Part shown: positions 45,288 to 61,710 of the stretch, piece after piece | Numbering within the stretch: the stretch's first letter is position 1 | Layout of the letters: every line of letters begins with the position of its first letter | Assembly (NCBI RefSeq): GCF_003399445.1 | Contig: NZ_QUQO01000002.1 | Span: forward strand, 248,001 to 312,000 | DNA from: Parvularcula marina | GTDB taxonomy: Bacteria; Pseudomonadota; Alphaproteobacteria; Caulobacterales; Parvularculaceae | Direction: 5' to 3' | DNA: 64,000 bases | Notes under the pieces: generated by a model | Database searches by the model: none | What the model was told of the DNA's origin: nothing | What the model saw: only the letters and a program-made list of their open reading frames with translations | Position numbers and translations under genes: made by a program

Positions 45288-45369
45288 GAAAAGTCCCCAA
45301 CGGTTTTCTTTTTTCTTCGTACCGGCATCAAAAAAGTTACGCGGAATTTCTCGCGCTTTAGGGGTGCGG

Positions 45370-45385: not shown

Positions 45386-45439
45386 CGTTATGACTGATCC
45401 TTTAACCAAGGTTTCCATTAGTGCCGCGACGAGGGTCAT

Positions 45440-47056
45440 ATGCCGCTAAATTTCTCAGCTCCGGATCTTACCGAACTCACCCCGCGTATCAGCGTGATCG
45501 GGGTTGGTGGGGCAGGCGGTAACGCGGTCAACAACATGATCGATGCCCAGCTGGAAGGCGTCGAGTTCATCGTGGCGAACACAGACGCGCAGGCTGTCGG
45601 CCTCGCCAAGGCGTCACACAAGATCCAGCTGGGTGCGGGCACGACGAAGGGCTTGGGCGCAGGTTCGATCCCCGATGTAGGCCGTCAGGCCGCGGAAGAA
45701 TCCCTCGAAGAGCTGATGGCGCTGCTTGATGGCTCGAACATGCTCTTCATCACCGCCGGCATGGGCGGCGGCACCGGCACGGGCGCAGCCCCGGTCATCG
45801 CCAAAGCAGCGCGTGAGCGAGGTATCCTGACGGTCGGTGTCGTCACCAAGCCGTTCCAGTTCGAAGGCGCCCGCCGTATGCGGACCGCTGAGGCTGGGAT
45901 CGAAGAGCTGCAAGACAAAGTCGATACGCTCCTGATCATCCCGAACCAGAACCTCTTCCGCCTTGCTGACGAGAACACGACCTTTGCTGATGCGTTTGCG
46001 ATGGCCGACCAGGTGCTCCATCAAGGCGTGCGCGGCATCACCGATTTGATGATCGTCCCCGGCCTCATCAATCTCGACTTTGCTGACGTCCGCTCCGTGA
46101 TGAGCGAGATGGGGAAAGCGATGATGGGTACAGGCGAAGCTTCCGGCGCCGAGCGCGCAAGCCAGGCTGCTGCCGCTGCAATTTCCAACCCGCTGCTCGA
46201 TGAGACCTCGATGAAAGGCGCCAAGGGCGTTCTCATCAACATCACCGGCGGGCTCGACATGAAACTCTTCGAAGTTGACGAGGCCGCTAACCGCGTCCGC
46301 GCCGAAGTTGATCCGGATGCGAATATTATCGTTGGCTCGACCTTCTCTCAGGAACTCGAAGGCACGATGCGCGTCTCGGTCGTGGCGACGGGAATTGAGC
46401 GGGCTGAGGAAATCTCCCGCCCGGTGATCACGCGCACAGTGAGGGCCGAGGAAAAAAAGCCAGTTGAGGCCGAGGCGCCAGCCCGTGTTGCTGCGCCGAC
46501 GCCTGCTCCGGTTGCTGCTGAGAAAGTTGAAGAGAAGACCATGATTGAGCTGGCTGATGCCGCGCCGATCATTGAGCCGACACTGCCGGAAATTGTCGCC
46601 CCTGCGGCCCAAAAGGTCGAAGTGAGTGTGCCGGCTCCCGCAGCTGCTCAGCCCAAGCCGCAGGCGCCGATGACATCCGTGCCGATGGCTGCAAAAGAGC
46701 CGCCGAAGCCGCAAAAGCCGGTCGCGCGCCGTGAACTGACGCCTGATGATGTCAGCCGCCGTGCCGAGAATCCGGTCGGCGATGTGCATGAGCGTATCCG
46801 CCGTATGCTGACCGAAGATGACACCGTCACGCTTCGCCCCAGCCAGCCCCCGCGTCAGCCGCAGGCTAATCCTTTCCGCAAGACGGGGGCTTCGACCATT
46901 GGCACGGCGCTCAACGCGCTGAAGGAAACCTTCGTGGCTAAGACTGGTCACGCGGACGAGCAACCGCCGCGCCGCAAGATGGCCAAGGACGCGTTTGCGA
47001 CGGATGACGAGGAAGATCTCGAAATCCCGGCTTTCCTGCGCCGCTCCGGCCGCTGA
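45440..47056 (+). CDS. ftsZ: cell division protein FtsZ
   Basis: 538 residues. GTPase core: [19 protein letters not shown], and the tubulin signature GGGTGTG (109-115), then [11 protein letters not shown] and [12 protein letters not shown]; the core ends near 330. A long Pro/Ala-rich linker (about 335-520) precedes the conserved C-terminal peptide [11 protein letters not shown] that binds FtsA and other membrane anchors. It polymerises into the division ring. It is not next to ftsQ, ftsA or murein genes: the neighbours are a membrane protein (divergent) and rpiA. A second ftsZ in the dcw cluster elsewhere cannot be excluded. The hairpin GCCCCTT / AAGGGGC at 47066-47085 lies after the stop, without a T-tract. 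Confidence 0.95.
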
Positions 47057-47106
47057 GCCGCAAGAGCCCCTTCCACAAAAGGGGCAGTCGGCGCTAGGGA
47101 GCGGCG

Positions 47107-47805
47107 ATGAGCACATCACAAAAAGAACGGGCGGCGCTGGCCGCCCTTGAACTTGTCCGGGACGGCATGACGATCGGCCTTGGCACAGGCTCGACGGCTG
47201 CCTTCTTTATCGAAGGGCTAGGCCGAAAGATCCGCGAAGAGGGCCTTGAGATCGAGGCGATCCCGACCTCTCAGGCGAGCGACGCGCTGGCCCGCAAGGC
47301 GGGTATCGAGCTGATCATTCCCGATGAGACGACTGTCATCGATCTCGATGTCGATGGCGCCGATGAAGTCTCCGCCGAGGGGCATTTGATCAAAGGCGGC
47401 GGCGCGGCGCTGCTGCGCGAGAAGATCATCGCGCGGGCAGCAAAACAGTTCGTTGTCATCGCTGATGAGAGCAAAAGCGTCACCGAGCTTGGTGCTTTCC
47501 CGTTGCCGATTGAGATCGAGCAATTCGGCTTTGCCCTGACGGTTCGGGCCTTACGCGACATGCTTGCCGGTGAAGGGCATGAAGGCGTCGAGCTGTCCTT
47601 GCGTCATAACGAAGAGGGCAGCTTCGTTCTCTCCGATGGCGGCAATTTCATTGTCGATGCAAAGCTGGGGCGTATCCGTGAGCCGGTCGCGCTTGAAAGT
47701 GCGCTCAACATGATCCCGGGCGTCGTTGATTGCGGCCTCTTTATCGGCATGGCCGATCAGGTGATCATCGGCACCGCGGATGGTATCGACACCCGCCGCT
47801 ATTAG
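47107..47805 (+). CDS. rpiA: ribose-5-phosphate isomerase A
   Basis: 232 residues. Signatures are GLGTGSTAAFFIEGLG, PTSQASDALA, DLDVDGADEVSAEGHLIKGGGAALLREKI, VVIADESKSV and MIPGVVDCGLFIGMADQVIIG. These include the catalytic Asp and Glu of the DGADE region and the KGGG loop. It interconverts ribose 5-phosphate and ribulose 5-phosphate in the pentose phosphate pathway. It lies 50 bp after ftsZ on the same strand. Confidence 0.95.
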   Translation: MSTSQKERAALAALELVRDGMTIGLGTGSTAAFFIEGLGRKIREEGLEIEAIPTSQASDALARKAGIELIIPDETTVIDLDVDGADEVSAEGHLIKGGGAALLREKIIARAAKQFVVIADESKSVTELGAFPLPIEIEQFGFALTVRALRDMLAGEGHEGVELSLRHNEEGSFVLSDGGNFIVDAKLGRIREPVALESALNMIPGVVDCGLFIGMADQVIIGTADGIDTRRY

Positions 47806-47835
47806 TTTCCGCCTCGGCGTCCAGGGAGGCCCGTT

Positions 47836-48363
47836 ATGACCGACACCCCTAAAACCCCCTTTGAAGAGCTCAAGGCTGCGATCCATGATTATGGCGAAGC
47901 GGCGATGGAGAACCTCGTGCGCTGCCGGGCGTTGGGGCATGCGATCTCGGATGGGTTTCTTGAATATCTCGGCGTGACGGAGGATTGCGTCTCTCTCGTG
48001 CCGCCGCATGGGCCATTCGATCCGCGCAAGGATTATGGTGACAAGGCATTTTCCTTCTCAGAAGCGCCGGTGATCCGGCTGGAGCCAATCGTCTTCGGGC
48101 TCTGTATCACCGTGCCGCATGAGGAGGATTCAGGGAAATTATGGCTGCGGGTCATCATCAAGATGGCCGTATCGGGTGGCGTCTTCGACGTCTTTGTCGG
48201 TCACCAGCCGCTGATCCGCGTGCCGCTCAATTTCGAGGGTGCGTTGAAACCGGTTTATGATGCCATAAAAGAAGAGCTCCTGTCGGTATTCGCTCAGGAG
48301 CTCGCCGTATTCAATGATTCGCGGTATGCGGAGGGCATCGGTTTCGTGCCCCCCGAGAAGTAA
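47836..48363 (+). CDS. hypothetical protein
   Basis: Not recognised. 175 residues with GGAGG upstream of the ATG and a short gap after rpiA. No signal peptide or membrane helix. It looks globular and mixed alpha/beta: AIHDYGEAAMENLVRCRALGHAISDGFLEYLG, then PVIRLEPIVFGLCITVPHEEDSGKLWLRVIIKMAV, and a C-terminal helical segment. Probably a cytosolic protein, cotranscribed with rpiA. Confidence 0.65.
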   Translation: MTDTPKTPFEELKAAIHDYGEAAMENLVRCRALGHAISDGFLEYLGVTEDCVSLVPPHGPFDPRKDYGDKAFSFSEAPVIRLEPIVFGLCITVPHEEDSGKLWLRVIIKMAVSGGVFDVFVGHQPLIRVPLNFEGALKPVYDAIKEELLSVFAQELAVFNDSRYAEGIGFVPPEK

Positions 48364-48369
48364 GCCTTG

Positions 48370-48882
48370 TTACTCTGCAGCCGCTGCGCGGAAGGAAGCG
48401 CAATCTTCCGCAAAGGCGGCGAAGGCCTGATCAGCTGTAGGCAGGTGCACGCGGACGCGGTCTTTTTTGCCAAGCTCGAATTCGACAAGCTGGCCCTGCA
48501 CGACGGCGTTGAAGACCTTCGCGGCCACTGATTTTGACCGCGGCCATGCAGCTTTTGCAGCCGGAAGATAGGTCCAATCACGCTCATCAGCGAGTTCTCC
48601 ATCAATGAAGAGCTTGCCGGTCCAGATCCGTGCACGGGAGGTTTTCACATCCTCAATGCCATCAAAATCGATCGCCTCGACAGCGAAGATCGCGGAGAGC
48701 TTATCGCCGGCACATTGCAGCATGACGCCGGGCTTGCTCTGGTCTTCGGGACGAACCGAAGAGGCGGCAGGCTTGTCATCGATGATCTTCAGATCACGCT
48801 GCCAGTCGACCTGTGTTGTAGGATCCTGCGCGCCCATGCCTGTAACCAGGAAAGCGGCGGCGACGAAAAAAGGTGTTCCCAT
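48370..48882 (-). CDS. hypothetical secreted protein
   Basis: 170 residues from the ATG at 48882, with GGGGAGA upstream. A signal peptide ends near GMGAQ (about residue 19). The mature part has WQRDLKIIDDKPAASS, a Cys in LQCAGDKLSAIFAVEA, ARIWTGKLFIDGELADERDWTYLPAAKAAWP, and a Cys near the C-terminus. The two Cys could pair in the periplasm. I do not recognise the family. It converges on the 47836 gene, with six bases between them. Confidence 0.65.
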   Translation of the reverse strand: MGTPFFVAAAFLVTGMGAQDPTTQVDWQRDLKIIDDKPAASSVRPEDQSKPGVMLQCAGDKLSAIFAVEAIDFDGIEDVKTSRARIWTGKLFIDGELADERDWTYLPAAKAAWPRSKSVAAKVFNAVVQGQLVEFELGKKDRVRVHLPTADQAFAAFAEDCASFRAAAAE

Positions 48883-49036
48883 CGGTATTCTCCCCACATG
48901 AGAGTTTCAAACATCCCAAGACCACCAAGGATATAGGCATCAATTTGCCGTTTATCAATATGGCGGACGCATCCATTTGCCCCTTAGCCGGTGTCCGCTA
49001 CAGATCAACCCTAATGAACACGGAGGCTTCAGGCCC

Positions 49037-50404
49037 ATGAGTTACGATTATGATCTTTTCGTCATCGGCGCAGGATCGGGCGGCGTGCGGGCCGCAAACC
49101 GGGCCGCGCAGGCCGGCGCGAAGGTCGGGATTGCCGAGGAACGCGAGACCGGTGGCACTTGCGTGCTACGCGGCTGCGTGCCGAAAAAGCTCATGGTCTA
49201 TGCGAGCCAGTTCTCGGACCTTTTCAAGGACGCCAAGGGCTATGGCTGGACGATCGGGGACAGCGAATTTGACTGGCCGACCCTGCGCGACACGATCCAG
49301 GCGGAGCTCAAACGCCTGACCGGTCTCTATAATGAAGGGTTGGCAGGCAACGGGGTCGAGCGCATCCCGCATCGCGCGGTGGTCAAGGATCCGCATACGG
49401 TTCATATCGTTGAGGAAAACCGCGATGTGACGGCAGAGAAAATCCTCGTCGCCGTCGGCGGGCGCCCAAGCCTTGATCGCGCGGCAGACCCGGACCGCAT
49501 TGGCATCGTCTCGGATGATGTCTTCCATCTGGAAGAATTCCCCAAGCGGCTGGTCGTCGCGGGCGGTGGATATATCGCGCTTGAATTCGCGCATGTTTTT
49601 GCCCGTCTGGGGGCGGAGGTGACGCTGGTTTATCGCGGGCAGACGCTGCTTCGGAATTTTGATGCCGGAATTTCTGCGCGGGTTGAGAGTGATCTTGCGC
49701 TCGCCGGCATCCGTTATATCCCCGAGACAGTCTTCACACGGCTCTGGGAAGAGGGCGGCGAGAAGCATGTCGAGCTGATCACGGGCGAAGTCATCGATTG
49801 CGACCAGATCCTCTGGGCGATTGGCCGCACGCCGAATACGGAAGGATTGGGGCTCGATCTTGCTGGCGTTGAAATGGGGCCGAAAGGCGAGATCCTGACG
49901 GATGACGATTACCGCACCAATGTTGAAAGCATCTTTGCCCTCGGCGATGTGACGGACCGGGAGAACCTGACGCCGGTCGCGATCCGTGAGGCGATGGCGC
50001 TGGTCTCAACCCAGTTCAAGGATACGCCGAAACGGATGGAATATGATTTCATTCCCAAAGCGGTCTTCACGCAGCCGCCGGTCGGCACGGTCGGCCTCTC
50101 CGAGAAAGAGTGCCTTGCACGCGGTCTCGATATCGAAGTCTATGAGACCGATTTCCGGGCCATGCGGAACATTCTTGCCGGAAATGATGAGCGTTTCTAC
50201 GCCAAGATGATTGTCGAGAAGGGATCTGAGAAAGTGCTTGCCCTGCATATGGTCGGAGCCGATGCGCCGGAGATGATCCAGCTCGCGGCGGTGGCGATCA
50301 AGGCCGGGCTTACCAAGACGCAGTTCGATGAGACCTGCGCGGTCCACCCGACAGCGGCGGAGGAGCTGGTGACACTCGCCCGCAAACGGCCGGGACAGGC
50401 ATAA
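49037..50404 (+). CDS. gor: glutathione-disulfide reductase
   Basis: 455 residues from the ATG at 49037, with CGGAGG upstream; the frame to 48977 adds 20 unlikely residues. Class I flavin disulfide reductase: FAD GAGSGGVRAA, the redox disulfide CVLRGCVPKK (Cys42, Cys47), the NADPH site VVAGGGYIALEFAHVFARLG followed by a basic segment, IFALGDVTDRENLTPVA, and the dimer-interface HPTAAEEL with the active-site His. Absence of a lipoamide-type motif and the RGCVPKK form favour glutathione over dihydrolipoamide. It keeps glutathione reduced with NADPH. Confidence 0.93.
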   Translation: MSYDYDLFVIGAGSGGVRAANRAAQAGAKVGIAEERETGGTCVLRGCVPKKLMVYASQFSDLFKDAKGYGWTIGDSEFDWPTLRDTIQAELKRLTGLYNEGLAGNGVERIPHRAVVKDPHTVHIVEENRDVTAEKILVAVGGRPSLDRAADPDRIGIVSDDVFHLEEFPKRLVVAGGGYIALEFAHVFARLGAEVTLVYRGQTLLRNFDAGISARVESDLALAGIRYIPETVFTRLWEEGGEKHVELITGEVIDCDQILWAIGRTPNTEGLGLDLAGVEMGPKGEILTDDDYRTNVESIFALGDVTDRENLTPVAIREAMALVSTQFKDTPKRMEYDFIPKAVFTQPPVGTVGLSEKECLARGLDIEVYETDFRAMRNILAGNDERFYAKMIVEKGSEKVLALHMVGADAPEMIQLAAVAIKAGLTKTQFDETCAVHPTAAEELVTLARKRPGQA

Positions 50405-50805
50405 TGGCACCGACGCCCGGCTATTCAGGCAAACCGCTTTACCAGAAGCTGGGCCTGAAGCCGGGCATGACTTGTCTGACGATGGCGGCGCCCGATCATT
50501 ATTCCGACCTCGTCGACGGGGTGGAGGGCGTGACCTTCAGCACACGGGCGAAAGCGGCCGACGTCGTTCATCTCTTCTGCAAGGATCTGAAGACGCTGGA
50601 AGCCAAAGCCGAGCCGTCTCTGGCGCGGGTGAAAGAGGGCGGCATGCTGTGGGTCAGCTGGCCCAAGAAGTCCTCACCTCTTTATAAGGATGTGACGGAG
50701 GACGACCTTCGACGGGTGATCCTGCCGACCGGCTGGGTCGATGTGAAGGTCTGCGCCGTCGATAATGACTGGTCGGGGCTCAAATTCCTCAAGCGGAAGA
50801 GCTGA
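50404..50805 (+). CDS. DUF3052 family protein
   Basis: 133 residues. It starts YSGKPLYQKLGLKPGMTCL and has DVVHLFCKDLKTLEAKAEPSLARVKEGGMLWVSWPKKSS and LPTGWVDVKVCAVDNDWSGLKFL, the DUF3052 pattern. Cytosolic, function unknown. Its ATG shares one base with the gor stop (TAATG), so translation is coupled. Confidence 0.8.
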   Translation: MAPTPGYSGKPLYQKLGLKPGMTCLTMAAPDHYSDLVDGVEGVTFSTRAKAADVVHLFCKDLKTLEAKAEPSLARVKEGGMLWVSWPKKSSPLYKDVTEDDLRRVILPTGWVDVKVCAVDNDWSGLKFLKRKS

Positions 50806-50808
50806 GCC

Positions 50809-53034
50809 TTACCAGTTCGCAACCCAGGCGCCGAGGATGTTCGAGCGCTCATCTGTCCACGGATGCTTTCCGTCCGAGGTAAGAGGCTTCCAACCGCCAT
50901 TTGCAAGAAGCGGCAGAAGATCAGTGTCATGCCGGGCCAGTGCCACAACGCGGGTCGGGGCGGCAAAGGTCTCAAGTGGATTGTCGACACGGGATTTCTT
51001 CTCGATAGCGACCCAGCCTTCAGCCCCGGCGATGCGGCCGATGATCGGCCCCAGATTAAGGTGCCGGTTCGAGATATGGATCGCAAGAACGCCGTCGTCT
51101 GTCGTCCGTGACATGAACATGGAAAGCGCTTCGCGGGTCAGAAGGTGAGCGGGCACCGCATCTGAGCTGAAGGCATCGAGCAGCATGAAGCCGTAAGTGC
51201 CTTCCTGGGCATCCGCGACGGTCAGGCGGCCATCCCCCATGACGATTTCCGAATTTCCGCCGCAGGCGGAGAGAAAGTTGAAGAGTGCCGGATTGCGCGC
51301 AATCTCAACAACGACCGGGTCAATCTCATAGAACACACCGCGCTGTGACGGGTCCATGGCGCAGGCAACTGATCCCACCCCAAGGCCGACAACACCAACA
51401 GGCGAGCGTTCCTTATAGGATGAGAAGACTTCGCCAATCGGGGAGGTGGCATGATAATATGTGATCGGCGTCGGGCGGCCCTGATCTTCAAGACGCTGGG
51501 CGCCATGAACGGTCGTGCCGTGAATGAGAACGCGAAGATGCTCCGTCTGCGATACACGGTGAACGCCAAAGAAGCTGCGCTCAGTCAGGAGCGTCTGCTT
51601 ACCCATGAAGGGCGCGGCGATAGCAGCGGCGGCAAGGCTTGCCACGCAAGCCAGTGCGATCGAGCGGCTGCCCCGGGCGAGGATCAGGAGGATCAGCGGT
51701 ACAAAGAGGAAAAGCTGGGCCGAGAATTGCTGGACGTCGCCCTTGTCATGGCCTGACATCATCGAGCCGATGACGACACTGCCCATCGCGATTGTCGTGA
51801 ATATCCCAACACGGATCAGCCCGCCCGATACCCCTTTGGGTAAGGTCAAAAGGACGAGCGCCATGATCAGCGGGAACTCAACGACGCTAGAGAAGAGGAG
51901 CGGCGCAAGGATCGCATTGAAAGCGCCGCCAATGACACCGCCTAGCGACATGATGAAGTAAAATTCTGTCAGCCGCGATTTGGGCGGGCGGGAGGCCGCC
52001 AGCGTGCCGTGGCAATAGAGCGCGGCGGCACCAAGCGCTGCCAGCGCGATCCCGATCTCGATCAGGATCGGCCAGCTCGTCGCAAAGACGGTGAGGAGGA
52101 CGAGCCCTGCTGCAACTGGCAGCACGATCCCGGCCATCCGGGTAAAGAGAGCTTCGCGTGCACCGAAAGCAATGATGAAACTGCCGATATAAAGGATCAG
52201 CGGCGGCGACCATAAGAACGGCGCAGATGCGACATCGGTCGAGATATGGGAGGTCGTCCCCACAAGAAGCGAAGAAGGCAGGAAGGCAAGCGCCAGCCAG
52301 CGCAGGCGCTCTGTCATCGTGCCAGCGGGTGCAGTGCTTGTTGCGCTCTCGTGATGCTCTGTCGTCTGTGCGGTACGTGAGCGTGCCGCAACGATCAGGC
52401 CACAGACGATAAGTCCGGTAGACGCGATGGCGTATCCGGCCGCCCAGATCCAGCCTTGGGTGGTCACCCCGATCAGCGGCTCGAGCACGACCGGATAGGC
52501 AACAAGGCCGATCAGTGAGCCGATGTTTGATGCGCCATAGAGGAAGTAGGGGTCTTCAGCGTCTTTCTCGCCCGAATGGCCGTACCAGTGCTGAAGAAGC
52601 GGCGACGTCGCCGAAATCGCAATGAAGACCGGCGCGATCGAGACTGCGAATGTGCCCATCAGCCAGACAAGCGGATTGCCTTCATTGGGGGCGCCCAGCA
52701 CCCCTGAAAGCCCGATCGGCAGGGTCAGCCCGGCAAGCACAAGCACCGCGCCATGCACCGCGACCTGATGGCGGAGCGGCACGAAGCGGGCCAGCGCATG
52801 CGCATAGGCATATCCAGCCAGAAGCGCGGTCTGAAAGCAGACTAGCGAGACATTCCAAACGGACGGCGTGCCGCCGAGTAGCGGGGTCGCAAGCTTCGCA
52901 AAAAGCGGCTGAACGAGGAAAATCAGCGCCGCACTGGTCAGAATAGTTGCAATAAAGGGCAGGCGGCCTGCCAGAATCCGGGCCCCGCGAGGGGAGGAAA
53001 GTACGGCATCCTGCCGGACAGAGGTGGTCGACAT
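50809..53034 (-). CDS. membrane protein fused to a spermidine-synthase-like domain
   Basis: 741 residues from the ATG at 53034; a TTG at 53043 is possible. About twelve hydrophobic helices (residues 25-480) with an MFS-like arrangement lead into a cytosolic methyltransferase-type domain: PVGVVGLGVGSVACAM for S-adenosylmethionine or its decarboxylated form, FYEIDPVVVEIA with the acidic residue, and FMLLDAFSSDAVPAHLLTREAL. Fusions of this type are widespread and annotated as fused MFS/spermidine synthase. Their substrate is unproved. The usual Asp of the polyamine site is not obvious, so true spermidine synthesis is doubtful. Confidence 0.75.
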   Translation of the reverse strand: MSTTSVRQDAVLSSPRGARILAGRLPFIATILTSAALIFLVQPLFAKLATPLLGGTPSVWNVSLVCFQTALLAGYAYAHALARFVPLRHQVAVHGAVLVLAGLTLPIGLSGVLGAPNEGNPLVWLMGTFAVSIAPVFIAISATSPLLQHWYGHSGEKDAEDPYFLYGASNIGSLIGLVAYPVVLEPLIGVTTQGWIWAAGYAIASTGLIVCGLIVAARSRTAQTTEHHESATSTAPAGTMTERLRWLALAFLPSSLLVGTTSHISTDVASAPFLWSPPLILYIGSFIIAFGAREALFTRMAGIVLPVAAGLVLLTVFATSWPILIEIGIALAALGAAALYCHGTLAASRPPKSRLTEFYFIMSLGGVIGGAFNAILAPLLFSSVVEFPLIMALVLLTLPKGVSGGLIRVGIFTTIAMGSVVIGSMMSGHDKGDVQQFSAQLFLFVPLILLILARGSRSIALACVASLAAAAIAAPFMGKQTLLTERSFFGVHRVSQTEHLRVLIHGTTVHGAQRLEDQGRPTPITYYHATSPIGEVFSSYKERSPVGVVGLGVGSVACAMDPSQRGVFYEIDPVVVEIARNPALFNFLSACGGNSEIVMGDGRLTVADAQEGTYGFMLLDAFSSDAVPAHLLTREALSMFMSRTTDDGVLAIHISNRHLNLGPIIGRIAGAEGWVAIEKKSRVDNPLETFAAPTRVVALARHDTDLLPLLANGGWKPLTSDGKHPWTDERSNILGAWVANW

Positions 53035-53196
53035 CTGGCTCAAGCCCTTCCGCGTAATAGGGTAAACCTATCGGAAAGGCGTTGTGGAACCGTGAACCCG
53101 GACGCGAATGTTAAGCTCTTTTTGCGTGAATGATTGCCCCCGGGGCTTCTTTCCCATACCGTAGCGCCAAGTTTAGGTGGGTTCCGGGGCAATATC

Positions 53197-54480
53197 ATGA
53201 CGTCAGAAGTCGTGTTGATGAACAGGCAGGCAGTGGCCATGGCCGCTGACAGTGCTGTCACCATCTCAGGGCCGAACTATCTCAAGACCTATCAGAGCGT
53301 GGACAAGCTGTTCCCGCTGGTCCCGGATCAGCCGATCGGGGTCATGATCTATAACAATGCCGAGCTGATGGGCATGCCGTGGGAGACCGTGATCTCGGTC
53401 TATCGTGACCAGGCGGCGGGCAAGAATTTCGACACGGTCGACGCCTATGCGCGCGACTTCATCTCTTTCCTGTCGAACAATCCGGACCTCTTCCCGCAGG
53501 ACCATCAGGACCGCGAATTCTGCAAGCACATCGCTGTCGTGATGAGCATCATCGCCAGTGATTTCGACTATCATGTCGAGCATTTCCGCCAGTCCCAGGC
53601 AGGCAATTTGCGCGACCATGTCTCGGCGATCTTCGAATTCACGGTGAACCAGCTTTATGTGGATTACCGGACCAATCTCGATGAATCGCCACGGGGGGAG
53701 CTTGCCTGTTTCCCACGCGGGACGGCTGACCAGATCAACCGCCGCTATGCCGGGCCGATCAAGGAAATCATCGAAAGCCTGATTGCTTCGCTGCATGCCG
53801 ATTATGGCTCGCTCACAGTCTCCGAAACGACGCGTCGCCAGCTTGAGGAGATCGCGGTCTTCTCGGTGATCAAGGACGCCTTCTTCGAACATTATACGGG
53901 GGTGGTCTTTGCCGGCTTCGGCCGCCGCGAGACCTTCCCCTCCATGCGCAGCTATCTTTGCTCGACCGTCATCATGGGCACGATGAAGCACCGTCAGGAC
54001 CGCTCGAGGGATATGACCGCCGATGCCGGGCCGGTTATCCAGCCTTTCGCGCAGGACCGGATGATCCGCACCTTCCTGACCGGCATGGATCAGGGCCTTC
54101 GCTATTTCCTCTTCGGCGAGACGCTGCGGCTCTCCATGCATCTGGTGACGGATGTTGTAGGGCAGGCCCCGGGCCTGTCGGACGAACAGCGCCAACGGCT
54201 CTTCGCGCAATATTCAGAAAACAATCTCGGCGCCGCCATTCAGGCCTTTTTCTCGTCGATCGACGAGTACCAGTTCCGCTCGCATACCGGGCCGATCCTC
54301 AGGGCCATTGGCAGCCTGCCGAAGAAAGAGCTGGGCGAGACCGCTGCCTCGCTCATCAAGCTCAACAGCTTCCAGCAAAAGGTCATGCACTCGGTCGAGA
54401 CCGTGGGCGGACCGATCAGCCTTGCTACCATCACGCGCAATGAAGGCCTCGTGATGGGCAAGGAACGCGCGGATCTATAG
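53197..54480 (+). CDS. proteasome beta-subunit-like (Ntn-hydrolase-type) protein of unknown function
   Basis: 427 residues from the ATG at 53197. The N-terminus reads M-TSEVVLMNRQAVAMAADSAVT. After loss of Met, Thr is residue 1, Asp is residue 17 and AADS-x-x-T fits the proteasome beta/HslV alignment exactly. A Lys in SVDKLFPL (residue 36) matches the catalytic Lys33 with a small insertion, and PIGVMIYNNAELMG follows, like the GxAG-type strand. The chain is far longer than HslV (about 175), Anbu (about 250) or beta subunits. The C-terminal 200 residues are helical and unrecognised, ending GPISLATITRNEGLVMGKERADL. It would be a cytosolic N-terminal-threonine hydrolase. The next gene follows by 16 bases. 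No ATPase gene is nearby. Confidence 0.75.
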   Translation: MTSEVVLMNRQAVAMAADSAVTISGPNYLKTYQSVDKLFPLVPDQPIGVMIYNNAELMGMPWETVISVYRDQAAGKNFDTVDAYARDFISFLSNNPDLFPQDHQDREFCKHIAVVMSIIASDFDYHVEHFRQSQAGNLRDHVSAIFEFTVNQLYVDYRTNLDESPRGELACFPRGTADQINRRYAGPIKEIIESLIASLHADYGSLTVSETTRRQLEEIAVFSVIKDAFFEHYTGVVFAGFGRRETFPSMRSYLCSTVIMGTMKHRQDRSRDMTADAGPVIQPFAQDRMIRTFLTGMDQGLRYFLFGETLRLSMHLVTDVVGQAPGLSDEQRQRLFAQYSENNLGAAIQAFFSSIDEYQFRSHTGPILRAIGSLPKKELGETAASLIKLNSFQQKVMHSVETVGGPISLATITRNEGLVMGKERADL

Positions 54481-54496
54481 GAGAAGGACGGACATC

Positions 54497-54934
54497 ATGA
54501 GCAAAGACCGTTTGTCCGATATCTGGAACGGATTTTCCCAGCGCAGCTCGCTCGATCTCTCGGGCACGAGCGTCGATGACACGCTGCGCCCCTCGCGCCG
54601 GGACCAGAGCTTTGAGCGCTCCTACCGGTTGCCAGAGCAGACAACCGACGGGCAGGCGACGCCGGGGCACGACCCTGTCGCTGCCGCACTGACCGCGATG
54701 CATACCGAGATGCAGGCGACTGCCAAAGCCGGTAAGGGCCGCCAGCGCCAGCAAATGGTGGCGCCGCATCACTCCACGCCGCCCGAAAGCGCGCTGGAGC
54801 GCACGCTGCTCTCTGATATCTCTTTCACCAAGGCTAAGGTCTCGCGGCGGGGCGGGGATTATCTGAGCTATGCCACCGAGCGGCAGGCCGAGTGGCAGCG
54901 CCGTAAGCGGAAGAAATTCCTCGGAATTTTCTGA
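54497..54934 (+). CDS. hypothetical partner of the proteasome-like gene
   Basis: Not recognised. 145 residues. GGAGAAGGACGG precedes the ATG and the gap to the upstream stop is 16 bases, so the two are surely in one transcript. The sequence is hydrophilic, rich in Ser, Arg and Gln, and probably disordered in large part. It has SLDLSGTSVDDTL near the N-terminus and a basic C-terminus RQAEWQRRKRKKFLGIF. There is no signal peptide. It may be a substrate, adaptor or regulator of the upstream enzyme. This is inference from position only. Confidence 0.65.
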   Translation: MSKDRLSDIWNGFSQRSSLDLSGTSVDDTLRPSRRDQSFERSYRLPEQTTDGQATPGHDPVAAALTAMHTEMQATAKAGKGRQRQQMVAPHHSTPPESALERTLLSDISFTKAKVSRRGGDYLSYATERQAEWQRRKRKKFLGIF

Positions 54935-54937
54935 TCG

Positions 54938-55738
54938 TTAGAGCGGCAGTGCCGGCCAGATCCGTTGCAGGATGAAAACCGCTGCAATGGCGCCTGCGAG
55001 CCAGGGGCCAAAGCGGATCTCTGTTGCGCCGTCGAGCCGGCCTTTCCCCATCAATAGTGCGCCGATCAGGGCGCTTGAGGCGGCGAGCGCGAGCATGATG
55101 GGCAGTACGTAGGGGCCTGTAAACGCCGCCCCCGCACCGAGCAGTTTGGCGTCCCCACCCCCAAGGCCCTCGCGTCCCCGCAAAAGCCGGTAGAGGGCGG
55201 CGAGCGCGGCAAGGCATCCCCAGCCGATGACCCAGCCGAGAATGGCGTCCTGCGCTGTCACGAAAATGCCGAATGCGCCTGCACCAAGTCCGAGGGTGAG
55301 CAGCGGCAGGGTCAGCGCATCGGGCAGATAGCCGGTGCGCGCATCAATTGCTGCCATGGCGATCAGAAGCAGGAAAAAGGCGAGTGATGCGCCTGCCATG
55401 AGGGGGCTGGCAAACAGCAATGCCGAAATGACCCCTGCGAAAAGACCTAGCGATTCGACGATGGGGTAGAAGCGGGGGATCGGCGTCTCGCAATGACGGC
55501 ACCGGCCGCGCGCGAAGAGATAGCCAAGGATCGGGATCAGCTCGACGGGCCGCAGCCGCGTCTTGCAGGATGGACAGTGAGAGGGCGGCCAGGCGAGTGA
55601 CAGCGTCTGGTCTTCACCCTCGCTCTCAACCAGCCCCCATATCTGCGGCCCGCGATGGATAACGACGCCGAGAAAACTACCAAGCAGCAGCCCAAGCCCC
55701 GCAAATCCGATCAGGAGAATCACTCCCATCATATCCAT
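54938..55738 (-). CDS. prepilin peptidase (A24 family)
   Basis: 266 residues. N-terminal LLLGSFLGVVIHR, the zinc-binding cysteines CPSC and CRHC (about 55-83), and the two catalytic aspartates in AAIDARTGYLPD and GGGDAKLLGAGAAF, embedded in about seven helices. It cleaves and N-methylates type IV prepilins and type II secretion pseudopilins in the inner membrane (PilD/GspO). gspC and gspD lie 6 kb away on the other strand, which favours a GspO role. Confidence 0.88.
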   Translation of the reverse strand: MDMMGVILLIGFAGLGLLLGSFLGVVIHRGPQIWGLVESEGEDQTLSLAWPPSHCPSCKTRLRPVELIPILGYLFARGRCRHCETPIPRFYPIVESLGLFAGVISALLFASPLMAGASLAFFLLLIAMAAIDARTGYLPDALTLPLLTLGLGAGAFGIFVTAQDAILGWVIGWGCLAALAALYRLLRGREGLGGGDAKLLGAGAAFTGPYVLPIMLALAASSALIGALLMGKGRLDGATEIRFGPWLAGAIAAVFILQRIWPALPL

Positions 55739-55809
55739 CTCAAACTGCAGAATATTTCCTCCGTCTTGCGCACTATTTGCGCATTATGAGCAGTGCTGAA
55801 CAAGTCGTG

Positions 55810-55854
55810 CTGTCATGGAACTGTCTTATTGTCATTGGCCTGTCACATTGTCAC
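55810..55854 (+). promoter_or_regulatory. tandem Pho boxes (PhoB sites)
   Basis: CTGTCAT (55810) and CTGTCTT (55821) are spaced by 11 bases, as are TTGTCAT (55829) and CTGTCAC (55840). A further half-site TTGTCAC starts at 55848. The Pho box consensus is two CTGTCAT-type repeats with 4-base spacers, so this is two boxes in tandem, 19 bases apart. TATAAA at 55863-55868 can serve as the -10 element, 8 bases past the last half-site. Induction of the lipoprotein gene under phosphate starvation is expected. Confidence 0.8.
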
Positions 55855-55914
55855 GCAATTGTTATAAAAAGACCGTTTACCGACAAATATTTTCAGATTT
55901 TCCCCCTTGCCAGT

Positions 55915-55931
55915 CTTTCATGTCATGAAAG
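55915..55931. promoter_or_regulatory. 17-bp palindrome in the lipoprotein leader
   Basis: CTTTCATG-T-CATGAAAG is an exact palindrome about 90 bases upstream of the lipoprotein ATG and 46 bases past the -10 candidate. It has no T-tract. A second operator or an RNA hairpin in the 5' leader are possible; neither is proved. Confidence 0.5.
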
Positions 55932-56021
55932 TGTGAAATTGCCTCCCTATGAGCGCGGGGTGAGGTCGTGGGGCCTCTATGAATCTTATTGTACCTGCAA
56001 TCTGCCTTAGGGGGCAAAAGC

Positions 56022-58991
56022 ATGAAAATGATCTCTTCTCTTCGCGGTGGGCTTCTCCTGACCAGCGCCTGTGCGGTTCTCGCGGCCTGTTCAGGCAGCG
56101 GTAGTGTCGAAAATACCGGTAACACCGGTTCTGTCACCATCAATCCGGGTAATGGCGGCGGTGGCGGCCAGACGACGGCTGATGGCGCTGTTGATTTCAC
56201 GACGCAGCTCTGCCCCGATGGCACGACTGAAGGTACACGGACTGTTGGCGGTGTCGACATCACGGCCTGTATTATTCCGGCTGGCACTCTGCTCACCGAT
56301 ACCACGCTCGAAGCTGGCAATGCTTACGCTCTCGACGGCACGGTCTTCGTTGGTAACTCGACCTTCAGCGCCGCGACCGGTATTGCTCCGGGCACGCAGG
56401 TTACGCTGAACATCGAACCCGGCGTCATTGTCTTCGGCCTCAATGGTGAAGACGCTCTGGTCGTCTCCCCGGGGTCGCAGATCAACGCTGTTGGCTCGCC
56501 GAGCCAGCCGATCATCTTTACTTCAGCCGCTGACCTGATCGATGCCGATCAGGACGGCACGGACCTCAGCGCCATGGAAGCGGCTTCTGATGGTGTCTCT
56601 GGCGGTTCCTCCACGGCTCGCGGCCAGTGGGGCGGCATTGTCATCAACGGCCTCGCACCGATCAACGATTGTGAAGACGGGACTGTGGACCCGGTTGTCA
56701 GCCCTGAGCTCTGCGTCAAAGACGGCGAAGGCGGCTCTGGTCTTTATGGCGGCAGCAACCCGGCCGATAATTCCGGTACGTTGCAATTTGTCCGCGTCCA
56801 GTATGCTGGCTTCCTTTTCTCGACCGATGACGAGCTTAACGGCATAGCCTTCCAGGGCGTCGGCAACATGACGACGGTCGATAATATTCAGGTCCACAAC
56901 AATGCTGATGACGGCGTCGAGTTCTTCGGCGGGACGGTCAACGCGACCCACGTCGTCGTGACCGGTGCTGGTGATGACTCGATCGACTGGACCGATGGCT
57001 GGCAGGGTAACATCCAGTATGCCCTCGTCGTGCAAACGCCGGGCGACGCCAACCGTGGCTTCGAAGGTGACAACCGTGGTAACGACAACGCGATCCGTCC
57101 GCAGTCGATGCCGAATATCGCCAACTTCACGCTGACCACCGACTTCGGCAACAATGTTCCGGGTCCGGACGCCAATGGTGACGGCCCGGATGATGGCGCC
57201 AAGCTTCGCGAAGGCACCGGCGGCTTCCTGGCCAACGGTATCATCGTCGGCTTCCAGGGGCAGGGCATCGATTTTGACGTCCCGGGTGATTTTACGCCTG
57301 CCAACCCAGCTGAAGTTGATCCGCGCCCGACGCTCGACTCGATCTTCCTCGCTGACAACAACGGCGGTGCTTTCGACAGCGCTGGACGCACGCTGGCTGC
57401 GATGAACATCGTCGAAGCGGCTGGCTCCACGCTCAACGGTGTCTTCTCAGGCAGCGCTGAACAGGCTGTTGCAGCTGCAGACCTCAGCGGTCTCGCTGGC
57501 ATTGATAATGTTGATTACATCGGCGCCTTCTCGGACAGCGAAACGGCGATTTCCAACTCCTGGCTCGCTGGCTGGACGCTGGTTTCCAACGCGATCCCGG
57601 ATGCGGCAAATGCTGCTTGCCCGACTGGCACGACGCTCAGCTCCAACCCGGTTCCGGCCGGCCGTTCGGAAGCCCGCGTTTGCACGCTGCCGACCGTTGT
57701 CTCTGCTGACACGCGTCTCGTTGGCGGGAATCTCTACGAGCTTGACGGCTCTGTCTTCGTCGGCACCGATGCTGGTCCTGACGCTTCCAGCCCGTTCGGC
57801 GGCGCGGTTCAGGTCGCTCTGACCATTGATCCGGGTGTCACGCTTTACGGTCTTAACGGTGAAGATGCGCTGATCGTCACACGCGGTAGCCAGCTCTTCT
57901 CGAATGGCACCGAAGGCGCACCAGTCGTCATGACCTCGCTTGCTGACCTCAACGGCACCGCAACCGCGACAACTCGCGGTCAGTGGGGCGGCGTTGTGAT
58001 CAACGGTCGTGCCCCGATCAACGACTGTGAAGTTGGGACAGTCGATCCGGTTGCGAACCCGGAACAGTGTGAGAAAGACGGCGAGGGTGGCTCTGGCCTC
58101 TTCGGCGGTAACGAGCCGACCGACAATTCGGGCCGTCTCACCTACACGCAGGTTCGTTATGCTGGCTTCCTCTTCTCGACGGATGACGAGCTGAACGGTA
58201 TCGCCTTCCAGGGCGTTGGTTCGGATACGGAAGTTGACTACATCCAGGTTCACAACAACTCGGATGACGGCGTCGAATTCTTCGGCGGCACCGTCAATGC
58301 CAAGCACGTTGTGATCACCGGCGCAGGCGATGACTCGATCGACTGGACCGATGGCTGGACCGGTAACATCCAGTACGCCATCGTTGTTCAGACCGAAGGC
58401 GACGCCAACCGCGGCTTCGAGGGTGACAACCGTGGCAACGACAACGCGATCGAGCCGCAGTCCAACCCATGGATCCGGAACTTCACGCTGACTACCAACT
58501 TTGGTGGTTCTGTTCCTGGCCCGGATGCAAATGGCGATGGCCCGGATGACGGCATGAAACTCCGTGAAGGGACCGCTGGTCAGATGTCGAACGGTGTTGT
58601 TGTCGGCTTCGACGGTGAAGGTCTCGACTTCGACGCCCCGGCTGACTTCACGCCGACCTACCCGGTCGAAACCGGTCCGCGTCCGACCGTCCTGTCGACC
58701 TACCTTGCCAACAATGGCGACGACGGCGACGGCAATGTCGATCTCGGCGACAGCGAAACGATCTTCAACGCTGACTCCGAAAACGTTGCAGAAGACGTCG
58801 CCAACCCGCTCGTTGCTGACAGCGACGGCACCAGCGCAACGCTGATCCTGCAAGCGCCGAACGCGCTCGCCATCACGCCGGTCAACACCGATCGTCCGTC
58901 CGCTCCGGGCTTCTTCGATACGGTCGATTACATCGGCGCCATCCGTGACGATGCCGACAACTGGTATGTCGGCTGGACCTTCAGCCTGTAA
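56022..58991 (+). CDS. large duplicated beta-helix-type surface lipoprotein (ElpS-like candidate)
   Basis: 989 residues from the ATG at 56022. The lipobox is LAAC (Cys23), followed by a Gly/Asn/Thr linker. Two long repeats, about 64-523 and 533-989, carry the same core segments in the same order, including RGQWGGIVING, YAGFLFSTDDELNGIAFQGV, VHNNADDGVEFFGGTVNA, GAGDDSIDWTDGW and GFEGDNRGNDNA. Repetitive G-V-x-V strands suggest a right-handed beta-helix. It lies after tandem Pho boxes and before a TonB receptor and type II secretion genes. This is the setting of Caulobacter ElpS, a lipoprotein released under phosphate starvation with increased alkaline phosphatase activity. Homology to ElpS was not tested. 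Codon use is more biased to C-ending codons than in neighbouring hypotheticals, suggesting strong expression. Confidence 0.8.
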   Translation: MKMISSLRGGLLLTSACAVLAACSGSGSVENTGNTGSVTINPGNGGGGGQTTADGAVDFTTQLCPDGTTEGTRTVGGVDITACIIPAGTLLTDTTLEAGNAYALDGTVFVGNSTFSAATGIAPGTQVTLNIEPGVIVFGLNGEDALVVSPGSQINAVGSPSQPIIFTSAADLIDADQDGTDLSAMEAASDGVSGGSSTARGQWGGIVINGLAPINDCEDGTVDPVVSPELCVKDGEGGSGLYGGSNPADNSGTLQFVRVQYAGFLFSTDDELNGIAFQGVGNMTTVDNIQVHNNADDGVEFFGGTVNATHVVVTGAGDDSIDWTDGWQGNIQYALVVQTPGDANRGFEGDNRGNDNAIRPQSMPNIANFTLTTDFGNNVPGPDANGDGPDDGAKLREGTGGFLANGIIVGFQGQGIDFDVPGDFTPANPAEVDPRPTLDSIFLADNNGGAFDSAGRTLAAMNIVEAAGSTLNGVFSGSAEQAVAAADLSGLAGIDNVDYIGAFSDSETAISNSWLAGWTLVSNAIPDAANAACPTGTTLSSNPVPAGRSEARVCTLPTVVSADTRLVGGNLYELDGSVFVGTDAGPDASSPFGGAVQVALTIDPGVTLYGLNGEDALIVTRGSQLFSNGTEGAPVVMTSLADLNGTATATTRGQWGGVVINGRAPINDCEVGTVDPVANPEQCEKDGEGGSGLFGGNEPTDNSGRLTYTQVRYAGFLFSTDDELNGIAFQGVGSDTEVDYIQVHNNSDDGVEFFGGTVNAKHVVITGAGDDSIDWTDGWTGNIQYAIVVQTEGDANRGFEGDNRGNDNAIEPQSNPWIRNFTLTTNFGGSVPGPDANGDGPDDGMKLREGTAGQMSNGVVVGFDGEGLDFDAPADFTPTYPVETGPRPTVLSTYLANNGDDGDGNVDLGDSETIFNADSENVAEDVANPLVADSDGTSATLILQAPNALAITPVNTDRPSAPGFFDTVDYIGAIRDDADNWYVGWTFSL
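56211..57590 (+). repeat. first copy of a large internal duplication
   Basis: This 460-codon unit is repeated at 57618-58988. At protein level most positions in the central 250 residues are identical by eye, and DNA is closely similar in stretches such as the one encoding GFEGDNRGNDNAI. Confidence 0.8.
57618..58988 (+). repeat. second copy of a large internal duplication
   Basis: 457-codon partner of 56211-57590, in direct orientation. The edges differ more than the core, so the duplication is not very recent or the ends have diverged. Confidence 0.8.
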
Positions 58992-58999
58992 CAAACCGA

Positions 59000-59030
59000 T
59001 CCGGGGACGGTCATTCCGTCCCCGGATTTT
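59000..59030 (+). terminator. hairpin between the lipoprotein and receptor genes
   Basis: Perfect 11-bp stem TCCGGGGACGG / CCGTCCCCGGA with a 5-base loop and TTTT after it, nine bases past the lipoprotein stop. The receptor ATG is 50 bases further on. It may reduce read-through so that lipoprotein is made in excess. Confidence 0.8.
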
Positions 59031-59079
59031 CGGGTCTCAAGTTTACGAATTCGCCCGAGAGGGCATTTAGAGGTAGGTC

Positions 59080-61710
59080 ATGAACAAATTTGGTAAAACG
59101 GCGCCATCGGCGCTTCTTGCCCTAGCGATGTGCGGCATTGCCGGCACCGCAGTGGCGCAGGAAGACGAAGGTGACGTCATCGTCGTCCGGGGCGCGCTCG
59201 TCCCCGACGAGAAACAGAACACGGCGGAAATTTCGAGCCTTCTCGACGCTGAGGATTTCGAACGCCAGGGTGACTCCGATATCGCTTCCGCACTCAAGCG
59301 CGTAGCCGGTCTCTCGATCACCGATGGCAAGTTCCCGGTCGCTCGCGGCCTAAACGAACGCTATTCCTCCGCGACGCTGAACGGCGTGCCGATCCCGTCG
59401 CCTGAGCCGCTGCGCCGTGCAGCACCGCTCGACATCGTGCCCACACGGATCCTTGCCGGATCGCTCGCCCAGAAGACCTATTCGCCGGAATACTCCGCTG
59501 AATTCGGTGGTGCGGCGATCGATCTGCGTACCGTTGGTGTGCCGAATGAAAGCTTTGTGTCGCTGAAAATCGGCATGGAAGTTGACACCGAGACGACGCT
59601 CCGTGAAGGCTATTTCTACGATGGCTCGGACACGGACGTTCTTGGTTTCGATGATGGCCTGCGGAACCTGCCGGGTATTGCAGACCGCGCCGTGCGCGAA
59701 GGCGTCGACGCTGTCGGTCAAATCGCCCTCGACACCGCTTTCGAGCAGGACAAGACGCTTCTGATCACTGAAGGCGACGTGCCGGTCAATGGCAGCTTCT
59801 CTGCCAGCGTTGGCCTCATCATCGCGGATACGGCAAATTATCGCATCGGTACGACGACGCATGTCGGTTACTCGAATGAGTGGCAGTTCCGTGATGCCTT
59901 CGAGAACCGGACGGAAGGCACCAACCTTCTGAACAACTCGAACTCGGTCACCTCCGATTACGACGAGACCCGCCAGGAAATCGGCGTCAATGCCTTCAAC
60001 ACGACGGGCATCGAATTCGGCAATGGCGATCACGAGATTGCGCTGACGACTTACCTTCTGCGCAGCTCGCTGAAGTCGGCCAAGATCACGTCGGACACGG
60101 ATAATGACGTGACCCAGAACGAGATCCGCCGCGAATCGACGAGCTGGCTCGAGCGTGAAGTCTGGCAGGGGCAACTCAACGGCACACACCTGTTCGCCGA
60201 TATGAAAGACCTCGAATTTGCATGGCGCGTCGCTTACGGCGAAGCATCCCGCGAAGAGCCTTACAATCGCCAGACCTACCGCATTCTGAGCCCGACCAGC
60301 GGGAACTATCTCTATGCGGAAGGTGAAGCTGACGAGAACACGATCAAGTTCTCCGAGCTTCAGGACGAAAACTTCTATTTCGCAGGTGACTTCACCCTGC
60401 CATTCGATGTTTTTGGCCGCACTTCAGAGCTCCGCTTCGGCGGTAGCTACCGGGACAATTCCCGCTCGACACTGCGTCGTGACTTCGACTTCCGCTCACC
60501 GCAGACCGGCGCCACCGGCGTCATCTCGGCCAGCCCGGAACTCGCCGCCTCGCGTATCGACCTCATCTATTCGGATGTGGTTCTCGCCTCGAACATCATC
60601 AACATCTCGGCCCGTGCCGGTCGTCTCTTCCCGGATGCGTCTGAAGCTTCCATGGAAGTGACTGCGGCCTATGCCCTCGCTGATGTTCAGCTTAACGACT
60701 ATCTGCGCGCTTCGGTCGGCGTCCGTTATGAAGACTCATCAGAAGAGACTTCGGTCACGCTGACCACGGCGAATGGCGGTACCCAGTCTTTCGATCCGCT
60801 TGAGGAAGAATACTTCCTGCCGGCGGTGACGCTGACCTGGAACCCGTTCGGCAACATCCAGGTCCGTGGTGCTTACTCCCAGACGATCACCCGTCCGCAG
60901 TTCCGCGAATTGGCCGTGGCTGACTTTGTTGACCCGAACCTTGGCATCACGCTGACTGGTAACCCGTTCCTCGTGAACTCCGAGATCGACAACTATGACG
61001 TTCGCGCTGAATGGTACTTTGCCCGTAACGAGTTCCTGACGGTTGGCCTGTTCTACAAGGACATCACCAACCCGATTGAGCAGTACCAGACGGGCCGGGA
61101 AGCCAACACGACCTCGTTCCTCAATGCGCCGTCTGCTGAAGTTTACGGTGTGGAGGTCGAGTTCGAGAAGAAATTCCCGCTCGATGAATGGTTCGACGGT
61201 GAGCAGTGGTATGGCAAGGAACTCTTCTTCGCCACCAACTACACCTGGTCGGAATCTAAGGTCAGCGCCGATGGCATCGTGACGATCGCCCGGAACTCTC
61301 AAGGCATGTTCGTGCCGGATACGGGCGACGCTGCTGGCCGGATCACCGATGGCCGGAAGCTGCAAGGTCAGTCCGATCACCTGTTCAACCTGCAACTCGG
61401 CATCGAGAACATCGACACCGGCACCAAGCTGACGGGTCTCGTCAACTATGCCAGCGAGCGCGTTCTCTTCGCGGAGACGGTTGGCGGCACGGGCCCGGCC
61501 GTTCTTGAACAGCCGCCGGTCTCCTTCGACCTCGTTTTCAGCCAGGACGTCGAATTCATGAGCGCTGATTATGGCCTCGGGATCTCGGTCAAGAACATCC
61601 TGGGCGAGGACTATTCGGCCTATCGGGAAGACATTTCCGGCGCCGATGCCCCGTTCCTTGAATATGACCGCGGCACCAAGTTCTCGATCAGCCTCAGCCG
61701 CGACTTCTAA
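59080..61710 (+). CDS. TonB-dependent receptor linked to the Pho-regulated lipoprotein
   Basis: 876 residues with AGAGGT upstream of the ATG. The signal peptide ends in VAQ (about 27). A TonB-box-like DVIVVRG segment is followed by a plug with ALKRVAGLSITDGKFPVARGLNERYSSATLNGVPIPSPEPLRRAAPLDIVP. The large barrel ends in TKFSISLSRDF with the terminal Phe. The plug type, with RGLNERY and the short N-terminus, is common in Caulobacter- and Sphingomonas-type receptors that import polymers or phosphate-related compounds. It is likely to share the Pho-controlled transcript with the lipoprotein and may use ligands prepared by it. The substrate is not known. Confidence 0.85.
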   Translation: MNKFGKTAPSALLALAMCGIAGTAVAQEDEGDVIVVRGALVPDEKQNTAEISSLLDAEDFERQGDSDIASALKRVAGLSITDGKFPVARGLNERYSSATLNGVPIPSPEPLRRAAPLDIVPTRILAGSLAQKTYSPEYSAEFGGAAIDLRTVGVPNESFVSLKIGMEVDTETTLREGYFYDGSDTDVLGFDDGLRNLPGIADRAVREGVDAVGQIALDTAFEQDKTLLITEGDVPVNGSFSASVGLIIADTANYRIGTTTHVGYSNEWQFRDAFENRTEGTNLLNNSNSVTSDYDETRQEIGVNAFNTTGIEFGNGDHEIALTTYLLRSSLKSAKITSDTDNDVTQNEIRRESTSWLEREVWQGQLNGTHLFADMKDLEFAWRVAYGEASREEPYNRQTYRILSPTSGNYLYAEGEADENTIKFSELQDENFYFAGDFTLPFDVFGRTSELRFGGSYRDNSRSTLRRDFDFRSPQTGATGVISASPELAASRIDLIYSDVVLASNIINISARAGRLFPDASEASMEVTAAYALADVQLNDYLRASVGVRYEDSSEETSVTLTTANGGTQSFDPLEEEYFLPAVTLTWNPFGNIQVRGAYSQTITRPQFRELAVADFVDPNLGITLTGNPFLVNSEIDNYDVRAEWYFARNEFLTVGLFYKDITNPIEQYQTGREANTTSFLNAPSAEVYGVEVEFEKKFPLDEWFDGEQWYGKELFFATNYTWSESKVSADGIVTIARNSQGMFVPDTGDAAGRITDGRKLQGQSDHLFNLQLGIENIDTGTKLTGLVNYASERVLFAETVGGTGPAVLEQPPVSFDLVFSQDVEFMSADYGLGISVKNILGEDYSAYREDISGADAPFLEYDRGTKFSISLSRDF

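Follow-up and report, generated by a model that had tools for sequence, protein, structure and literature searches.

The window analysed here, a stretch of 64,000 nucleotides from contig NZ_QUQO01000002.1 of Parvularcula marina, carries a conserved two-gene unit in which gene A encodes a proteasome-like protein whose threonine set includes an N-terminal Thr and gene B, just downstream, encodes a small basic protein. Fold searches, an invariant catalytic triad and the downstream pairing uphold the core of a preliminary description of this DNA, which had read A as an N-terminal-threonine, proteasome-like protein in a two-gene unit. On fold and family together it is virtually certain that A is a proteasome-like protein with the threonine set, and the A–B unit is very probably real. 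Our proposal for how the pair works is more guarded: A would be a stand-alone threonine hydrolase, and the role of B, its dedicated partner, would be to control or feed it, a reading of the two proteins as active and interacting that we moderately favour. The fold is known, having been described in 2021; the pairing, and two lineages in which A is linked to ubiquitin-like genes, are new as far as we found.

Predicted fold and putative catalytic residues of A

Proteasome beta subunits and HslV share a catalytic set of Thr1, Asp17 and Lys33. Gene A starts with ATG at 53197 and its protein opens Met-Thr, as read from the sequence; the counterparts of the other two residues lie within AADSAVT (Asp18, the 17th residue counted from Thr) and SVDKLFPL (Lys37, the 36th), just where the preliminary description had reported a Thr directly after Met, an Asp at 17 within AADSxxT and a Lys at 36. 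The features of the unit are as follows.

53197..54480, + strand: gene A, 427-aa proteasome-like (Ntn-hydrolase fold) protein (open reading frame, phrog_5990 match, structural model, homologues)
53200..53202, + strand: Thr2 codon, predicted nucleophile (proteasome Thr1); Thr in 73/73 homologues; in the model, residue 2 superposes on the first residue of the matched proteasome chain
53248..53250, + strand: Asp18 codon (proteasome Asp17); Asp in 72/72 readable rows
53305..53307, + strand: Lys37 codon (proteasome Lys33); Lys in 72/72 readable rows
53497..53871, + strand: helical insertion 1, residues ~101–225, after H1/H2; model helices 101–133, 142–158, 176–202 and 210–225
54091..54384, + strand: long helices 299–396, H3/H4 region; model helices 299–322, 329–373 and 376–396
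54403..54411, + strand: Val403-Gly404-Gly405, aligned by hand with proteasome Ser169-Gly170-Gly171; V, G and G each in 73/73
54480..54487, + strand: GGAGAAGG, ribosome-binding-site-like sequence ahead of gene B
54497..54934, + strand: gene B, 145-aa hydrophilic basic partner (open reading frame, tblastn relatives after A, dN/dS)
54902..54931, + strand: RKRKKFLGIF, basic-plus-hydrophobic C-terminal tail of B; such an ending in 43/47 B proteins of loci L032–L079

Invariance of the three residues had been singled out beforehand as a check, and it holds throughout the alignment of 73 diverse homologues used to count conservation, one of which (L070) is masked at Asp18 and Lys37 and leaves 72 readable rows there; the equivalence of the triad is assigned by sequence alignment. 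Thr directly follows the start codon in 169/169 homologous loci (ATG 152, TTG 10, GTG 7), a count that includes near-copies and comprises matches beginning at query residue 1, with two disrupted copies (L030 and L031), one partial copy (L099) and the short loci L001–L017 left out. A therefore has no propeptide. A GG.(V/I)D segment of the family also aligns to archaeal proteasome beta in HMMER comparisons.

The surroundings of the triad depart from those of proteasomes. The position of the oxyanion Gly47 is Tyr or Phe in 72/73 homologues (paired by hand, with which an hhalign alignment agrees), and the next position is Gly in 47/73 and Asn in 20/73, A of the window being among the latter; the Ser129 position is Gln in 62/73 and the Ser169 position Val in 73/73, both paired by hand. 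Peptidase activity of A should therefore not be assumed. We predict with high confidence that A is catalytic.

An AlphaFold2 model of A (pLDDT 93.0, pTM 0.89) aligned in VIA-align to 1j2q_H, the proteasome beta subunit of A. fulgidus, with Z 17.4, rmsd 3.3 and 16% identity over 187 aligned residues (target 202; model residues 2..427 on chain residues 1..195), residue 2 of A superposing on chain residue 1. Z was at least 8 for 998 of 1000 Foldseek-preselected chains, and Foldseek itself gave E 3.2e-5 to the yeast 20S proteasome and 4.6e-4 to Anbu; in BFVD it returned no match at E <= 0.001, the best being a phage protein labelled ‘proteasome beta type-2’ (E 1.4e-3). The preliminary description had staked its reading on an Ntn-hydrolase fold, and the predicted structure indeed matches 20S proteasome beta subunits.

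That description had also noted about 200 extra helical residues, which are present, and had placed them after a catalytic domain formed by residues 1–230, which is not where the model has them: the core strands fall in segments 4–52, 234–284 and 407–423, and the helices are inserted between these, helices 299–396 lying between strands 280–284 and 407–413. The model further contains helices 62–73 and 81–93. Insertion sites after H1/H2 and at H3/H4 have been described for proteasome homologues as a third and a fourth site (PMC8665760), and in the model the insertions 101–225 and 299–396 of A fall at these two sites.

Relatives and distribution of A

As a single query A had no match in Pfam, NCBIfam, PADLOC or PDB sequences, and a single-protein scan of viral sequences found no relative; the family link therefore required profiles and structure. 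The profile of phrog_5990, a family label without a function, matches A of the window at E 4.7e-76 and all 22/22 members of the first alignment, and A belongs to it. Of the 22 homologues, three weakly match a phage ‘peptidase HslV family’ PHROG and three have a Pfam Proteasome hit, at E 0.0063 for the strongest; the best PDB match of the A-family profile is an archaeal proteasome beta subunit (E 0.0066).

Relatives of A span several bacterial phyla, phages, satellites and plasmids. They were found in 14/289 genomes of the Alphaproteobacteria, the class of the window (source genome counted), in 10 plasmid records and in 13 phage records, nine of these from Streptococcus phages or satellites. 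Scanning a single genome for each species with a profile yielded at least 461 relatives in 590 candidate stretches, of which the best 80, forming 78 loci, were used; none of those best 80 is archaeal. Viral contigs held 176 relatives by profile scan, and 80 were kept. In the Parvularculaceae A has near-core status, with a homologue in 59/62 genomes, 40/42 high-quality genomes and 9/9 genera (the 59 including one genome, G1036, with a divergent copy only and another, G1031, with pieces only), and it is rare in one other order (12/377 genomes). A branch of proteasome-like proteins thus stands near the core of one bacterial family and also rides on phages, satellites and plasmids.

Divergent copies with 29–43% identity are a second copy in one genome (G1038:C15) and the sole copy found in another (G1036:C1). 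Two tandem copies of equal length, 2.8 kb apart and with identical displayed ends, occur in one genome (L213:6172-10357). On two plasmids the frame ends early (L030:8001-9074 and L031:8001-8756), and A can therefore be lost on those plasmids.

Elsewhere in the source genome, two further genes match Pfam Proteasome (L226:1465-2037 and L227:1363-2100), the products of which we take to be HslV and Anbu, respectively; A is therefore the third proteasome-like protein of this genome. Directly upstream of the Anbu-like gene, on the same strand, lies a gene for a 343-aa protein that looks to us like a member of the alpha-E family. HslV and Anbu resemble A as bacterial proteasome-like proteins but are about half its length, and as single sequences the genome’s own HslV and Anbu showed weak similarity to A, with hhalign probabilities of 2.8 and 33.8, respectively. 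Compared with 20S proteasome beta subunits, A shares the predicted fold and the Thr1/Asp17/Lys33 set, but it lacks a propeptide, has ~240 extra residues that are mostly helical insertions, and carries the changed Gly47, Ser129 and Ser169 positions.

Fuchs, Alva and Lupas (2021) reported 22 new proteasome-like clusters, among them the proteasome homologues with multiple insertions (PMI); PMI-4, with HDY66466.1 as representative, comprised 501 sequences at nr90 from many phyla, Euryarchaeota and phages (PMC8665760). Like A, PMI-4 combines a proteasome-like core and the triad with insertions after H1/H2 and between H3/H4, spans many phyla and phages, and has no known AAA+ partner. PMI-3 shares both insertion sites, and Table 1 of that paper gives it without phages. 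By architecture and spread, A is most likely a PMI-4 member; of the ‘uncharacterised class’ in the preliminary description, the first word stands and the notion of a class not yet recognised is not supported, given PMI-4 and phrog_5990. That paper reports no genomic context suggestive of a specific function, whereas A is followed by a partner ORF. Our search, with most subscription papers and bioRxiv preprints outside its scope, found no published characterisation of PMI-4 or of a downstream gene.

We also considered whether A is a connectase. Connectases are proteasome-like, carry a helical insertion and are ligases, not proteases; they lack H1/H2, have a two-helix insertion at S3/S4 and are listed solely for Euryarchaeota (PMC8665760). 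A does not fit this description, as its model has helices 62–73 and 81–93 and insertions elsewhere than S3/S4.

A small gene downstream of A

Gene B begins 16 bases past the stop codon of A and encodes a hydrophilic, basic protein (pI 10.05, GRAVY -0.96), as the preliminary description had it. Its product had no Pfam, PADLOC or PHROG match and one NCBIfam match far below the cut-off; PHROG likewise had no match for seven B proteins, that of the window and six short ones. By tblastn, relatives of B follow A in 43 loci, including the window’s own (L001) and a partial one (L099), and in the other 41 the match starts 7–56 nt past the stop of A. When ORFs were read directly, a B-type ORF stood next to A in 48/48 of loci L032–L079, although three (L073, L075 and L076) are very divergent; among 47 B proteins picked by script from these loci, a DRLKQIW-type start is shared by 44 and the basic-plus-hydrophobic end by 43. 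Of 524 pairs from loci L032–L079, 339 could be scored, with a median dN/dS of 0.26, and B is under purifying selection. In a joint single-chain model of A and B, B was mostly below pLDDT 60, with one helix at 83–86. As a sequence family, B is linked to A within the Parvularculaceae and their close relatives; beyond these, tblastn found no relatives.

Outside the window’s clade, the slot after A is mostly filled by short ORFs of unrelated-looking sequence. Under a lax definition (an ORF of 30–210 aa starting -35 to +60 nt from the stop of A), one follows A in 109/111 non-redundant loci and follows 463/772 other long genes from the same loci, a high baseline of 60%. Under a strict definition, which adds an ATG start and a ribosome-site motif, the counts were 78/111 for A and 87/772 for the control genes, and the difference recurred in loci L032–L079 (31/35 versus 19/328), loci L080–L109 (16/27 versus 21/247) and viral loci (31/49 versus 47/197). 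Since the A loci share ancestry, P values for this enrichment are overstated. A later set of 13 regions, which had played no part when the pattern was noticed, contained 10 with a recognisable A. With the search interval widened slightly, to -45 to +75 nt, a small ORF (at least 30 aa) followed A in seven of these 10, weakly in two (L213 and L224), and was absent in three (L214, L215 and L216). On the proposed check of whether a gene like that at 54497 always adjoins A, such a gene follows A as a sequence family in the Parvularculaceae and their close relatives, and elsewhere the ORFs look unrelated or, in those three later loci, none was found.

The short B forms are mostly 35–75 aa (median pI of the set 9.8), and four of these ORFs are annotated CDSs in public records. 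Of 19 pairs of short forms, 10 gave dN/dS of 0.06–0.40, eight were saturated and one was identical. In three loci without a clear B (L025, L103 and L214), the C-terminus of A is longer and rich in basic residues, which is perhaps a fusion. As far as we found, the pairing of A with a short, mostly basic, fast-diverging downstream ORF is new, and its frequency across bacteria, plasmids and phages suggests a dedicated two-part machine.

Two types of pair can be distinguished. A with a C-terminal KRKHYF-like tail accompanies a short B in 59 loci, and tailless A accompanies a long B in 49, the window’s type. Five further loci comprise four that on reading have variant A tails with short B (L096, L120, L160 and L179) and an exception with tailless A and a B candidate of only 31 aa (L089). 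Tailless A proteins form one clade on the tree, that of the window, so the split in tail and B length is one event. Because the long B that accompanies the missing A tail ends in basic-plus-aromatic residues, the sequences suggest that B may have taken over a docking element that was once part of A.

Genomic surroundings and possible roles

The explanation that we favour builds on the predicted fold, triad conservation, gene pairing, purifying selection on B and the two A/B types; from there we infer Met removal, catalysis, the assembly state, A–B binding and control by B. The start Met of A would be removed and Thr2 would become the nucleophile, with Asp18 and Lys37 completing the triad. Formation of the usual ring is probably prevented, or the ring reshaped, by the two large helical insertions, and A would therefore need no ATPase. 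B, which is probably translated from the mRNA of A, would dock on A through short segments within an otherwise flexible chain and control or feed it as an inhibitor, activator or adaptor. Binding of B to A we consider probable, and we give regulation or feeding of A by B an even chance. If A is active without an ATPase, the pair would be a model of a proteasome-like enzyme controlled by a small flexible protein, and B, as a frequent neighbour, offers a handle on A as a candidate regulator, adaptor or substrate.

The main rival to regulation or feeding is that B is a substrate or peptide modifier, cleaved by A or joined to another protein via a Thr ester in the manner of connectase. An invariant triad within an altered Gly47/Ser129/Ser169 neighbourhood speaks for this, as do the precedent of connectase, itself a ligase of the proteasome-like kind that bears a helical insertion (PMC8665760), the small, hydrophilic and mostly basic B usually encoded directly past A, and the conjugation enzymes beside A in some lineages. 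A recognition motif would be expected, however, and by eye the B types share no obvious one and diverge fast; the S3/S4 insertion site of connectase also differs from the two sites of A. We therefore regard this rival as unlikely. That A is a catalytically dead scaffold, its fold and triad kept for structural reasons, fits the replaced Gly47, Ser129 and Ser169 positions but sits poorly with Thr2, Asp18, Lys37 and the start-Thr junction being kept in every readable aligned homologue; proteasome alpha subunits, which are inactive, are unlike A in triad retention, and we hold this reading to be improbable. Most improbable of all is that the downstream ORFs are chance frames or mere neighbours unlinked to A: the lax baseline and the three later loci without an ORF speak for it, but strict enrichment in three subsets, purifying selection, the B-type ORF beside A in every one of loci L032–L079 and the four annotated short CDSs speak against it.

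A phage-defence or superinfection-exclusion cassette, in which B-inhibited A is freed on infection and cuts an essential or phage protein, has some appeal given that A occurs on plasmids, on phage satellites and in records of phages and prophages, and given its small, fast-evolving partner. When 148 of 197 listed neighbours in viral loci were scanned against PHROG, 241 families were matched, and among the first 25 of these repressors and regulators lead (phrog_4 in 12, phrog_8 in 10), and Q, endolysins, holin and integrase appear further down; repressor- and lysis-side phage regions are frequent sites of prophage cargo. In a Porphyromonas phage (L023:4001-5245), A lies inside the module of structural genes, flanked by methyltransferase and neck genes, and this placement differs from the repressor- or lysis-side positions common elsewhere. 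The near-core status of A in the Parvularculaceae (59/62 genomes, 40/42 of high quality) argues against a cassette, as does PADLOC: A and B had no match in the 2023 release at E up to 10, and among the 25 of 85 PADLOC families listed none occurred in more than three of 141 neighbours from 20 genome loci outside L032–L079. The same 141 neighbours matched 153 Pfam families, of which the 25 listed are headed by short-chain dehydrogenases (7), glycosyltransferases (6) and HSP70 (5). We consider a defence cassette rather unlikely overall; for the mobile copies, involvement in phage conflict is plausible, and it is a poorer fit to near-core status in the Parvularculaceae.

Ubiquitin-like conjugation genes lie within a few kb of A in seven loci, namely L025, L096, L103, L105 and three on Rhizobium plasmids (L028–L030), where relatives of Multi_ubiq/Prok-E2_E, ThiF and DUF6527 occur (Pfam names checked in L025 and L028):

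L025:4374-6799; L096:6494-8910; L103:6400-8817; L105:6478-8881: Multi_ubiq fused to Prok-E2_E, ThiF E1, DUF6527
L028:10699-14207: Rhizobium conjugation genes, additionally a JAB domain and a ClpP-like protein

Six of these seven A proteins are on the tree, where they imply at least two separate changes; the first group (L025, L096, L103 and L105) is nearest the window’s clade, subject to rooting. Bacterial ubiquitin-like systems of the BIL/Bub kind are the subject of published work. A link to ubiquitin as a general rule for A was rejected: Prok-E2_E scored above the cut-off in 5/398 Pseudomonadota genomes, with A in 0/5 of them (a search without a positive control), and it occurred in 1/24 A-bearing genomes searched, on another contig. 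The link is a feature of two lineages. It is conceivable, though we hold it improbable, that PMI-type A and B form the proteolytic arm of bacterial ubiquitin-like tagging, with B replacing the ATPase as loader or gate and, in the two co-located lineages, proteins tagged by the neighbouring Multi_ubiq/Prok-E2_E/ThiF systems as targets of A. Were this so, it would be an ATPase-free, ubiquitin-proteasome-like pathway distinct from Pup, and a tag-and-cut pathway in bacteria could be tested directly in the two lineages.

As judged by eye, no ATPase recurs widely beside A: a crude P-loop pattern matched 18/1027 neighbours, one look-alike pair (L054 and L057) among them. Among the ORFs of the window read by eye, no alpha-subunit or HslU-type ATPase gene was recognised beside A, a further difference from 20S proteasome beta and HslV, and the earlier remark that no HslU- or Mpa-type ATPase is adjacent holds, the sole AAA+ protein seen among ORFs overlapping 40000–60000 being a non-adjacent ClpB-like one (37339–40008). 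Further along the window, a gene at 55989–58991 encodes a predicted lipoprotein-like protein of 1000 aa with two long internal repeats and is followed by a TonB-receptor-like gene at 59080–61710, both recognised by eye.
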